Source: Methanolobus chelungpuianus (GTDB lineage: Archaea > Halobacteriota > Methanosarcinia > Methanosarcinales > Methanosarcinaceae). From it: DNA of 64,000 bases. The notes below the pieces were generated by a model. That model was not told the origin of the DNA. It ran no database searches and saw nothing but the letters and a program-made list of their open reading frames with translations. The DNA lies in assembly GCF_024500045.1 (NCBI RefSeq), contig NZ_JTEO01000002.1, positions 186,001 through 250,000 of the forward strand, read 5' to 3'. Position 1 is the stretch's first letter. Each line of letters starts with the position of its first letter. Of this stretch, positions 35,934 to 39,152 are shown piece by piece. The position numbers and the translations under genes were made by a program.

Positions 35934-35950
35934 TAACGCCGAGGTTGGGA
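35934..35950. repeat. Left attachment site of the element
   Basis: Seventeen bases identical to the tRNA-Ser 3' end at 39034-39050, found 33 bases after the FilR1-type gene. Similarity stops at once on the element side (GAAAAAAA versus TTTGAACC), as expected for a recombination product. Confidence 0.8.
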
Positions 35951-36090
35951 GAAAAAAACAGAGTTAAAATCCTTAAACACTTTCACTTAGCTTATTCATT
36001 GAATTCATATGTTTAAATAACTTTTTATTAAGCAAATAAAGCTTATGATAATTAAATTTGAGGAAATCTCTTTAAAAGTCTCATTAACTG

Positions 36091-36134
36091 GCGCATGTGC
36101 GCCCAATCCCGGGAGGACATGAGCGCACATGCGC
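36091..36134. repeat. Perfect 12-bp GC-rich inverted repeat
   Basis: GCGCATGTGCGC at 36091-36102 and its exact inverse at 36123-36134 frame a 20-base centre that itself holds the palindrome CCCGGG. It stands out in AT-rich DNA. It could be a replication or recombination site of the element, a protein-binding site, or a transcribed hairpin; followed by an A run, it would terminate transcription only on the minus strand. Confidence 0.55.
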
Positions 36135-36339
36135 GCCGGAACGTTAAAAAAAAGCGACTTATAAACCAAACGAGAAAAAAAGATGATCCGTAAAAAATGA
36201 CGGCCATTTCAAGTTTAATCCATCATAAACAAAGAGCATATTTCTTTATTTTGAAAAAACAATTTTGTTTAATTTACAACGAAACTAAAAAGACTAAAAT
36301 GAATCACGAAAGTTATAAATAATTAGAGATTATAGAACT

Positions 36340-36460
36340 TATTGACTAGACTTAGCATCCACAATAAAGTGGTTTATTATTAAGCTGTGGGGAGCTATCT
36401 CCCTGTAAATAGGAGATTACAAGTTAGTTAGGCATGTTTCCACAGCAACCCCTTTTTTAT
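36340..36460 (+). ncRNA. Candidate structured small RNA of the element
   Basis: A TATA-like TTATAAATA at about 36312-36320 is followed by a region with a closing helix GCTGTGG/CCACAGC (about 36382-36388 and 36438-36444), an inner hairpin GGGAG-CTAT-CTCCC, and then CCCC and six T, an archaeal oligo-T terminator. No good reading frame exists here. Promoter, folded body and terminator together suggest a transcript of about 120 nt. Both ends are estimates. Confidence 0.4.
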
Positions 36461-36602
36461 ACCTGAAAAGTTCTATCTGGAAAGACTGATTTAAGTGAAC
36501 GATCCGAAAGAGCCTCTAAGGGAAATGTGCCCTCGCTGACCCGCTGCAGGTCTCTCCCTCACCTACGCGCAAGCGCCCCCACCTGGCACTAAGATACATT
36601 CC

Positions 36603-36634
36603 TTTTATAAATATGTACAAACCTTCTTAGGTTT
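36603..36634 (+). promoter_or_regulatory. TATA box of the nuclease gene, probable leaderless mRNA
   Basis: TTTTATAAATATG at 36603-36615 lies about 25 bases before the ATG at 36635, the distance at which archaeal transcription starts, and there is no Shine-Dalgarno site. The message is probably leaderless. Confidence 0.5.
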
Positions 36635-37201
36635 ATGAGTATCAAGGACAGATTTTCTAAGGCTATTAATGCATTTCTGGATGATGAAGAAGAGAAAGTA
36701 GATAGAAAGCCTTCCATGAAAGAAAAGGAGCCTTCCGAAAACAACATCATGGAAGAGAAGATAGAGAAAGGAAACGAGTTTGAGAGCTTTGTAGTTAAGA
36801 AGTTCAGCAGGAAGTATTTTTCTATAGTGGCCTGGACAACTGACATTAACAGAAAACATAATAGATATGTTGAGTCTGATTCTGATCCTGACTTAAGGAT
36901 AAGATACGTACCTACTGATGAGGAATTTTCTATTGAGTGTAAGTTTAGATCAGGACTGTACCAGGGAAAAATAGCATGGTGCAAATATGAACAGATGGAA
37001 AGATACAGAGATTATAGGGAAAAGACAGGAATACCACTTTTTATTGTTATCGGTTTTGGAGGGGAGCCGGGAAAACCGGAGAGGATGTTTTGTGTACCTA
37101 TTGAAGAGATTAAGTATAATCAGTTATACCCTTCTGCGATAGAGGCCTTTGAGAGAAATCCGAAGGAATATTTTTTCTGGAAAAATGGAGTGCTTGAGTA
37201 A
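36635..37201 (+). CDS. Small PD-(D/E)XK-fold nuclease of the integrated element
   Basis: A 188-residue protein with a charged N-terminal tail (residues 1-45) and one nuclease-like domain. E48/E50 in GNEFESFVVKKF, D86 in SDSDPDLRIR, and E101-x-K103 in FSIECKF after a beta strand form the E...D...ExK layout of the restriction-endonuclease fold. Y118-E-Q120 on the following helix matches the conserved lysine or glutamine position. It might resolve junctions, nick the element's hairpin DNA, or restrict competitors. It is AT-rich like the rest of the element and unlike the host genes. The fold is seen from motifs; the role is open. Confidence 0.65.
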   Translation: MSIKDRFSKAINAFLDDEEEKVDRKPSMKEKEPSENNIMEEKIEKGNEFESFVVKKFSRKYFSIVAWTTDINRKHNRYVESDSDPDLRIRYVPTDEEFSIECKFRSGLYQGKIAWCKYEQMERYRDYREKTGIPLFIVIGFGGEPGKPERMFCVPIEEIKYNQLYPSAIEAFERNPKEYFFWKNGVLE

Positions 37202-37267
37202 ATCGTAGAATTTTAGTACAGGAAAGGGACCGTAAAGAAGCCCGCTTCCCTTCTCTCCTTCCCATGC

Positions 37268-37461
37268 CGGAAAAGAAAGGGTAGTTGTTTTAGTATGGAG
37301 ATTATTTCCGGTTGGGTCAGTCAGTCACGGGCTATTTTCGCACACTCGGACTTACTGCTTAAAGCCTGCGCCCACTGGGACGCCAGGCATTAAGCGTAAG
37401 TCCTCAAACAGACTGTGCGAAGCCCGCGACCGACCGACTGACCTTATACGGAAAAGAAAGG
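37268..37461. repeat. Hairpin of about 129 nt flanked by 13-bp direct repeats
   Basis: CGGAAAAGAAAGG occurs at 37268-37280 and 37449-37461. Between them, 37315-37443 folds into one long imperfect hairpin: GGTCAGTC with GACTGACC, CGGGCT with AGCCCG, TCGCACA with TGTGCGA, GGACTTAC with GTAAGTCC, GCTTAA with TTAAGC, and GCCT with AGGC, capped by CCC-ACT-GGG. About 45 base pairs form. It may be a replication or transfer origin, a recombination site, or a structured RNA. It does not resemble a known rho-independent terminator because no T run follows. Confidence 0.6.
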
Positions 37462-37546
37462 AAATATAAGTTTTATTTTTCTAACCTCTATTTCATGTGA
37501 AGCTTTTTTATAAATAAACCCCCGAAAAAAGAACCTTAAAATCAAT

Positions 37547-37627
37547 GTGCGTGCCAAGGTTGGCACACACGCCTTAATCGTGTACCTAAGGGAACAGGAG
37601 AAAAAAGCCAAAACGCCGCGTAGCGGC
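37547..37627. repeat. Two short hairpins between the nuclease and integrase genes
   Basis: GTGCCAA-GG-TTGGCAC at 37551-37566 (extended by GTG and CAC outside) and GCCGC-GTA-GCGGC at 37615-37627. They stand in an otherwise AT-rich non-coding stretch of about 600 bases. No gene is seen from 37202 to 37800. Confidence 0.5.
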
Positions 37628-37706
37628 ATTATTGCTAACTAGATAAGATTTAACATATTATTATAAAAGTAGTATCTAAATAAGCAAACGATAACAAGAG
37701 CTTTAA

Positions 37707-37755
37707 CGATGAAAAAAAGTAATGAAAAATAACAGTACCACATAAAATAGTGGTT
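37707..37755 (-). terminator. Terminator of the integrase gene
   Basis: Read on the minus strand after the integrase stop, a small hairpin CCAC-TATTTTAT-GTGG (37739-37754) is followed by TTTTTC and then a run of seven T (about 37709-37715). This fits termination of the integrase message. Confidence 0.45.
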
Positions 37756-37800
37756 CCAGTGGAAATTTAGCCCTTATTTTGAGTACATTTAGACCAAATT

Positions 37801-38958
37801 TCATAACACAACTTCAGCTAATATTTTTGCAACTTCTGGATCCCTAGCTGCAAGCTCCATTAAGGCAATGGAAATTTCAGCCCTTTTTTCATCAAGATTC
37901 ACTGCAGTTTCTATATTAAGAACCATTCCACACTTAGCACAAAATTTAGATGTAGAACCATTTACATGTTCACACCGTAAACACGTAACTGCAGTTAATT
38001 CAGGCCTTAAATCTTCTTTTTTAACTATTCCATGAATTCTTAAAATAGCGTCATCAATTTGACGACCTGATAAGTGAATATAAGTTCGAGGCATATCTGA
38101 ACCATGAACCCATCCTAAATGGTCCTCCATTTGTGCCTGGGTAAGGTGTTGGGCTAATTCAGTACTTCGGGAATGCCTAAAAAGATGACTATAAACTCTT
38201 TTATCAACTCCGGCCTTTTTAGCAATTCTTTTGACAAGAGAACTAAAAGCCGGATGCTGCATATGTCCTCCTTGGTTTCGCTGGCCAATATTAAGCCATA
38301 AAAACGAATCCGAATTCATTTTATTAGGGTGCATATCAATCCAGGAAGCAAGATAAGGGACAGAAAAAACAAGCCTTACTCTTCTCATTCCTGTTTTACC
38401 ATCAATAGTTAAAACAGCTCCGTATTGATCATATACAATATGCTTTAATTTCAAATTTCCAATTTCACTTATACGAGCACCACTGTCATAAAGAACAGCA
38501 ATAAAGGCCTTATCCCTTAAATGATTAGCTGCAAGAATCATCTTTTTAATATCAGACTCCGTTAAAAGTTCCTCAGGAATCTTCCTGTTAATTTGGCCCT
38601 TTACACGAATCCATTTTGTGCATTCCGGATCATCCCCTCCATTCTGCCAACGAAAGAAACGCTTAAGAGTTAGCTTATAATCGTGTTTAGTCCACTGCTT
38701 AATATCTTTACGTTCAATTTTTCCAACCACACGATAGAGATCGTCAATAGTAGCGTTTTTTAAATCAAGATTATAATCACGAACTAAAATATGAAGTGTT
38801 GAAATATATTTAAGCACTCGAACAGTTTTGAGACCCTCCGCATAAAGAACATCCCGAAATCTGTACATTAAATCTTTATTCTCACGACTGTAACTAGCAG
38901 CTTCAATCCTTTGTTCAAGTAAACTTAAACTTTTTTCGTGATTGTAAATAGACGCCAT
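37801..38958 (-). CDS. Tyrosine recombinase (integrase) with C-terminal zinc ribbon
   Basis: A 385-residue recombinase of the XerC/D-like archaeal group. A SAM-like N-terminal domain (about 25-125) is followed by the catalytic domain with R162 (SGARISE), K188 (DGKTGMRRV), H258-x-x-R261 (SHLFRHSRST), the H/W position at W283 (HLGWVHG) and the nucleophile Y293 (TYIHLSG). A four-cysteine ribbon (CLRC...CAKC) follows the active domain. The ATG at 38958 is preferred because GAGTGAT sits just before it; TTG 38973 is an alternative. Its start lies about 80 bases from the tRNA. All catalytic residues are present, so it should integrate and excise this element. Confidence 0.9.
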   Translation of the reverse strand: MASIYNHEKSLSLLEQRIEAASYSRENKDLMYRFRDVLYAEGLKTVRVLKYISTLHILVRDYNLDLKNATIDDLYRVVGKIERKDIKQWTKHDYKLTLKRFFRWQNGGDDPECTKWIRVKGQINRKIPEELLTESDIKKMILAANHLRDKAFIAVLYDSGARISEIGNLKLKHIVYDQYGAVLTIDGKTGMRRVRLVFSVPYLASWIDMHPNKMNSDSFLWLNIGQRNQGGHMQHPAFSSLVKRIAKKAGVDKRVYSHLFRHSRSTELAQHLTQAQMEDHLGWVHGSDMPRTYIHLSGRQIDDAILRIHGIVKKEDLRPELTAVTCLRCEHVNGSTSKFCAKCGMVLNIETAVNLDEKRAEISIALMELAARDPEVAKILAEVVL

Positions 38959-39033
38959 AATATCACTCTTCAAGGTTTTTATTTATTGATTACCCGTGCA
39001 GAGTGAAAGTGTTATAGCTTTTAACTGTTATTT

Positions 39034-39050
39034 TAACGCCGAGGTTGGGA
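39034..39050. repeat. Right attachment site inside the tRNA-Ser 3' end
   Basis: Seventeen bases identical to 35934-35950, covering the acceptor 3' strand, the discriminator base and part of the T stem, plus three bases beyond the gene. Integration therefore leaves the tRNA intact. Confidence 0.8.
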
Positions 39051-39152
39051 TTTGAACCCAAGCACTCCTCCCGGAGAAACCGGTCTCGAGCCGGTCGCGT
39101 TTGGACTCCTGGGCGGTCAAGCCTTCGGATTAGTCCGCTCTGCCACCTCGGC
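39037..39152 (-). tRNA. tRNA-Ser (anticodon CGA) with a probable 29-nt D-arm intron
   Basis: Acceptor GCCGAGG pairs with CCTCGGC, followed by discriminator G; CCA is not encoded. The T arm is TTGGG-TTCAAAT-CCCAA, the long class II variable arm CTCC-GGGA-GGAG, and the anticodon arm ACCGG-CTCGAGA-CCGGT with anticodon CGA at 39086-39088. The D region has 48 bases instead of about 19. Removing 39101-39129 restores a normal D arm. The insert and its flanks fold as a relaxed bulge-helix-bulge: outer GCG/CGC, central GACT/AGTC, bulges AAT and CAAA. The exact splice points could differ by one or two bases. Confidence 0.8.

Follow-up and report, generated by a model that had tools for sequence, protein, structure and literature searches.

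Gene Content of a 3.1-kb Insert at a tRNA-Ser Gene

A 3.1-kb insert adjoins a tRNA-Ser gene in the archaeon Methanolobus chelungpuianus, at positions 35934 to 39050 of a 64,000-nucleotide stretch of its genome (contig NZ_JTEO01000002.1, positions 186,001 to 250,000) that we call the window. The host genome (G000) is 2.6 Mb in size and 99.99% complete, and it contains no second copy of the insert. Between its ends the insert carries a tyrosine integrase gene, a gene for a PD-(D/E)XK nuclease-like protein and a predicted rolling-circle origin of the type associated with Rep-Arvir initiators; no gene for an initiator (rep), a single-stranded-DNA-binding (SSB)-like protein, a Zot ATPase or a capsid protein was recognized in it. 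Its main features are as follows.

35934..35950: distal attachment (att) copy, TAACGCCGAGGTTGGGA, in a 17-bp direct repeat; genome G023 has an uninterrupted site with one copy
36635..37201, + strand: PD-(D/E)XK nuclease-like protein, 188 amino acids (E50, D86, E101-x-K103), from a 14-sequence alignment
37514..37645, + strand: conserved Rep-Arvir-type rolling-circle origin (double-strand origin), predicted by covariance model R1 (111.7 bits, E=1.6e-31)
37801..38973, - strand: tyrosine integrase, 390 amino acids from a TTG codon (likely ATG start at 38958), with a C-terminal zinc ribbon (Pfam Phage_integrase, E=6.5e-19; DZR, 2e-3)
39034..39050: tRNA-proximal att copy, overlapping the tRNA-Ser 3′ end (direct repeat, Rfam, G023 site)
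39037..39152, - strand: target gene, tRNA-Ser(CGA), with a ~35-nucleotide insertion in the D arm (Rfam RF00005, 39.5 bits, E=1.1e-5)

An earlier note, made from the letters of the window alone, had read the 17-bp repeat, the tRNA target and the low G+C content as marks of an integrated element, and all of these observations held up. The repeat at 35934-35950 and 39034-39050 is perfect, and its sequence occurs twice on the + strand of the window and not at all on the - strand. G+C content is 37.2% in the element compared to 49.0% in the flanks. In G023, the closest relative compared, the site is uninterrupted; its alignment to the joined flanks of the window runs gap-free through the junction, with a single att copy and 94% identity on the tRNA side. 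Three further genomes (G026, G010 and G021) have the same neighboring genes and lack the insert, and because the site is empty in all four, the insertion looks recent. Chance recurrence of the repeat in relatives that lack the insert, which the note had named as a reason to doubt integration, was looked for and not seen.

Each of the 27 genomes of the genus has the tRNA-Ser(CGA) locus, and for 20 of them a single att core was found in the stretch retrieved for examination. ARAGORN missed this gene, probably because of the D-arm insertion, which is itself probably a non-canonical intron. Other integrases lie at the same tRNA in five genomes (G015, G011, G022, G016 and G005), making it an integration hotspot. 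The att repeat at the tRNA 3′ end, the adjoining intact integrase and the empty site in relatives establish the insert as a tRNA-targeting tyrosine-integrase element.

The integrase, also described beforehand as intact, retains the complete catalytic set (R/K/HxxR/HLGW/Y). Its closest relative found is a homolog in G006 that is 70% identical and has one stop; the pairwise ratio of nonsynonymous to synonymous substitution rates (dN/dS) between the two is ~0.1, with dS saturated. A search of IMG/VR with the integrase gave no match.

A Predicted Rep-Arvir Replication Origin

With the intergenic DNA between the nuclease and integrase genes as query, an element of ~95-130 bp corresponding to positions 37514-37645 was found in 25 of 112 genomes of the family, mostly at 78-90% identity; it was this element that recurred, rather than the long hairpin described below. 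Run against 186 genomes of the Methanosarcinales, the covariance model R1, built on 28 sequences among which is the window's own, matches 40 places in 31 of them, and the window's score of 111.7 bits falls among those of rep-bearing elements (45-148 bits). Three helices are predicted within it.

37547..37570, + strand: inverted repeat GTGCGTGCCA-AGGT-TGGCACACAC, a candidate Rep binding site (helix 1; 5 pairs changed on both sides)
37580..37595, + strand: candidate nick hairpin GTGTACC-TAAG-GGAAC, loop at 37587-37590 (compensatory changes; CTAAGG loop as in HRPV-3 and HGPV-1)
37613..37629, + strand: third hairpin, ACGCCGC-GTA-GCGGCAT (helix 3; 6 of 7 pairs changed on both sides)

The helices covary, with 11 pairs showing change on both sides, and none of 500 shuffles reaches either the paired percentage or the covariation score. 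The middle helix, GTACC-TAAG-GG[A/T]AC, has compensatory changes in loci L096 and L102, and an A-T pair is restored in three sequences; a different drawing of this hairpin, as CCTTA/TAAGG, was abandoned, its pairs never having changed on both sides.

Neighboring the conserved element are genes of ~480 amino acids that belong to PF25227 (DUF7845; E=1.2e-26), the Rep-Arvir rolling-circle initiators as defined by Wang et al. (2026, PMC13107129). All eight PF25227 places in the family share their DNA with the origin element, and rep reads towards it from a distance of 0.1-3.8 kb with variable cargo between. In another family of the order (locus L229), a divergent rep that is 31% identical ends 73 bp from the origin, and the element is downstream of all nine intact rep genes found. 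A side observation concerns genus g3 (L103, L105, L107 and L109), where the inverted repeat has become TGTCTCA/TGAGACA while the TAAG hairpin is unchanged, a pattern suggesting that Rep and its binding site have co-evolved.

The haloarchaeal pleolipoviruses HRPV-3 and HGPV-1 have in common the hairpin GTGTGGCTAAGGCCAC in the region downstream of a gene annotated as a “transcriptional regulator”, which we take to be their Rep-Arvir. The CTAAGG-loop hairpin of the window is identical to theirs in loop and closing pair and agrees with GTGTGGCTAAGGCCAC at 13 of 20 positions, compared to 16 of 20 for the L229 hairpin, AGGTGTAGCTAAGGCTACAC. A perfect four-base-pair stem with a TAAG loop occurs nowhere in the 128 kb formed by both strands of the window, the element's own hairpin having an A·A mismatch in its stem. 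In the virus SNJ2, the origin is essential by mutagenesis: stem and loop mutants abolish replication, and changes at loop positions A191/A192 and stem pair G188-C195 abolish or preserve it as expected (PMC13107129). The numbering of the haloarchaeal virus hairpin is in register with these mutants.

The methanogen element thus has the bipartite layout of Rep-Arvir origins, an inverted repeat plus a conserved hairpin. From homology and linkage, the resemblance extending to sequence, structure and placement with respect to rep, we infer that 37514-37645 is a Rep-Arvir-type origin. The earlier work (PMC13107129) reported no downstream element of comparable conservation beyond the Halobacteria, so the methanogen origin extends its findings. 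Comparison of the origin with phages and of the element's DNA with plasmids yielded no match, and the exact origin core was absent from IMG/VR (0 matches). A looser pattern gave 21 matches there; these lacked homologs of rep, integrase and nuclease and any wider resemblance to the origin, and were treated as chance.

The earlier note was right that a replication initiator is missing: PF25227 was found neither in the element nor in G000, and Zot was also absent from that genome. Permissive tblastn revealed no trace of rep, p64, p82, the major capsid protein (MCP) or Zot in the insert; weak Zot, rep and MCP matches inside it (E>0.2) are attributable to chance. The Zot/pI-like ATPase and small major coat protein by which inovirus-like proviruses are recognized likewise had no match in the element.

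Relatives, Nuclease and Noncoding Hairpins

Elements related to the insert form a series that runs from full inovirus-like proviruses through capsid-less plasmids to the rep-less insert of the window. Rep is accompanied by capsid-type genes and Zot or Zot-like ATPases in the proviruses L085 (16.4 kb, at tRNA-Ser) and L102 (13.1 kb, at tRNA-Arg), and by p64 and p82 in the plasmids L082 (6.4 kb) and L081 (8.5 kb), each inserted at tRNA-Thr. The window's integrase is 51-55% identical to the proviral class (52-55% for L085, L089 and L102) and 41-42% identical to the integrases of the capsid-less plasmids. The suggestion that the insert might be a new type of archaeal mini-element is not sustained; it is a reduced relative of known Rep-Arvir proviruses and integrative plasmids of the Methanosarcinaceae.

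Several further features of these relatives were observed. In L080, L084, L087, L092, L093 and L100 only the C-terminal part of rep is left, with a conserved origin, and L087 retains a 139-amino-acid C-terminal rep open reading frame. Two tandem Rep-Arvir elements with different integrases, L088 and L089, lie in one genome (G002, 2.378-2.399 Mb). The p82 protein is a conserved product of 78-88 amino acids encoded beside a coat-like gene (L089:7800-8036; L085:7986-8234); it has no Pfam match, and its sequence pattern suggests an ssDNA-binding (PC4-like) protein.

The putative active-site residues of the nuclease (E50, D86 and E101-x-K103) are invariant across 14 relatives. Homologs give weak Pfam matches (TnsA_N, 3.6e-5; MunI, 1.3e-4; PDDEXK_11, 1e-3), the window's own 188-amino-acid protein gives none, and AlphaFold models are of low confidence (predicted local distance difference test scores, pLDDT, of 44-46). 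A whole-genome search of 60 genomes found relatives in 19, the element's own genome counted, whereas a peptide-pattern scan of the genome collection and a search of IMG/VR gave no match. Relatives reside inside the inovirus-like proviruses L051, L054 and L102, in the last case across the att, and a homolog is present in L089. Another, in L046, adjoins a Xer-type recombinase at tRNA-Glu, and for further relatives no integrase was found close by. Because the gene stands beside several different integrases and also in loci without any, it is an accessory gene rather than the integrase's defining partner, and the nuclease-integrase pair, proposed beforehand as a family marker, does not define a family. 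The earlier note had also counted the same genes without att ends as evidence against a mobile unit; in relatives the nuclease gene does turn up in other surroundings that lack att ends.

The description of the element as two genes plus hairpin-rich noncoding DNA was accurate, with ~1.38 kb noncoding. Two hairpins lie outside the origin.

36091..36134: short GC-rich hairpin near the distal att (inverted repeat I5, 93%; DNA fold z=-3.8)
37306..37446: long imperfect hairpin of ~140 nucleotides (DNA z=-7.7/-9.6, RNA z=-9.65)

The long hairpin is exceptionally stable on both strands, with none of 200 shuffles equally stable. Its 3′ arm is 84.5% identical over 71 bp to a sequence in L098, only one arm being held in common. 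In Methanolobus Rep-Arvir elements the origin is separated from the p82 gene by a structured noncoding block of ~470 bp with 76-92% identity (L082:10321-11168, L081, L084, L087 and L088, with L085/L089). In full elements this conserved block is on the same side of the origin as 37306-37446 but is unrelated to it, and homology between the two was rejected for lack of sequence similarity. Structured DNA on this side of the origin without shared sequence would fit a single-strand origin or a morphogenetic signal, and the long hairpin is a candidate for either role. The interval 36330-36600 was rejected as a structured RNA (z=-0.67), and an Rfam search of the element's hairpins matched no family.

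A Candidate Satellite of Rep-Arvir Replicons

We lean slightly towards reading the insert as a satellite, a mini-replicon that lacks rep and depends on a helper, within the Rep-Arvir class of integrative archaeal viruses and plasmids. A more specific proposal, to which we give even odds, is that this archaeal satellite retains just an integrase, a rolling-circle origin and one nuclease, and that a methanogen inovirus-like virus or plasmid supplies the Rep-Arvir initiator that fires the origin in trans. In such a scheme the integrase would excise a circle, and a second element bearing a Methanolobus-type Rep-Arvir would enter the cell. The incoming Rep would bind the TGCCA/TGGCA inverted repeat and nick the TAAG-loop hairpin, both in trans, so that the circle would replicate by rolling circle; the 140-nucleotide hairpin may start the second strand. 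The circle would then spread together with its helper, and the nuclease would be accessory cargo, perhaps serving superinfection exclusion or DNA processing.

The earlier suggestion of a satellite copied by another plasmid or virus stands in part. In its favor, a Rep-Arvir-type origin is present in cis and rep is absent from both element and genome; the element is compact and missing from the nearest relatives, its ends and integrase are intact, its nick hairpin matches the consensus, its origin scores like those of rep-bearing elements and its integrase dN/dS is low. Several findings weigh against it. No other intact, att-bounded, rep-less element was found among the 40 origin sites of the 186 genomes, a set with one genome per species, and the present assembly contains no helper. 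The 3′ end of the window's origin reads TGCTAACTAG where the consensus is TGCTGGGTAGG, and one pair of its inverted repeat departs from the consensus. Many other rep-less origins lie in decayed loci with C-terminal rep fragments, indicating that origins outlive reps in this family.

The missing helper, the lack of a second intact mini-element and the abundance of decayed relatives, with rep fragments only at about half of the origin loci, also fit a deletion remnant. On that reading a full Rep-Arvir provirus or plasmid would have inserted at tRNA-Ser and then lost rep along with its structural and SSB-like genes; the att ends, integrase, origin and nuclease would be what is left of it, immobile as a unit. 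We give this deletion history an appreciable but clearly smaller chance than a satellite. The insert holds no relic of any lost gene, the integrase and nuclease frames are open, the att ends are identical, and the empty sites in four relatives point to a recent insertion. Moreover, the element is a mosaic that combines a proviral-class integrase with the origin orientation of capsid-less plasmids; because this combination matches none of the seven comparable rep-bearing relatives, no single internal deletion of them yields it. It is improbable that the insert is instead a minimal self-excising island, in which the integrase and a nuclease cargo rely on excision and passive transfer and the origin is vestigial. 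The intact integrase and att ends would suit such an island, as would the recurrence of the nuclease beside integrases in L046 and L054 and across the att in L102, but it leaves unexplained why a 3.1-kb element keeps a three-helix origin with a consensus nick loop. Less probable still, we consider, is that the conserved element works as a structured RNA (regulatory or antisense, for instance) and not as a DNA origin: covarying helices fit RNA too, but the loop and closing stem are identical to those of the pleolipovirus DNA origin, linkage to rep is invariable and no Rfam family matches.

These results give the Rep-Arvir elements of methanogens a conserved putative replication origin that can be tested, with a candidate nick hairpin in common with haloarchaeal pleolipoviruses, and point to a very small archaeal element that may be a satellite of Rep-Arvir replicons. 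If the proposal is correct, the TAAG-loop Rep-Arvir origin extends from haloarchaea to methanogens. Combined with a methanogen rep, the origin could form the backbone of vectors for use in Methanolobus and related archaea.

Helper-dependent satellites such as RS1 of CTX phage, P4 and the phage-inducible chromosomal islands (PICI), and pSSVx/pSSVi are small, carry a cis replication signal and often an integrase, and lack the functions that the helper supplies. Compared to these, the methanogen element has no recognized packaging or helper-interference gene, and candidate helpers are known only from related genomes. SNJ2 and the betapleolipoviruses HRPV-3 and HGPV-1 (PMC13107129) resemble it in being integrative (SNJ2, via an integrase) and in having an inverted repeat and a TAAG-loop hairpin closed by C-G, which in their case lie downstream of a PF25227 initiator. 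Unlike the element, they encode both an initiator and virion proteins, and the methanogen origin differs from theirs in its third covarying hairpin and its inverted repeat. The inovirus-like proviruses of Methanosarcinaceae (Roux et al. 2019, PMC6813254; L085, L089 and L102) have a related integrase and the same origin, and L089 and L102, which from their gene content are probably inoviruses, also have nuclease homologs; these proviruses differ in being ~13-16 kb where bounded and in carrying rep, p64, p82, MCP-like and Zot or Zot-like ATPase genes. The Methanolobus plasmids L082 and L081 differ from the element in their rep, p64, p82 and other cargo and in the sequence of their integrases, and are like it in possessing an integrase, a tRNA att pair, the same origin and the same orientation of integrase and origin.

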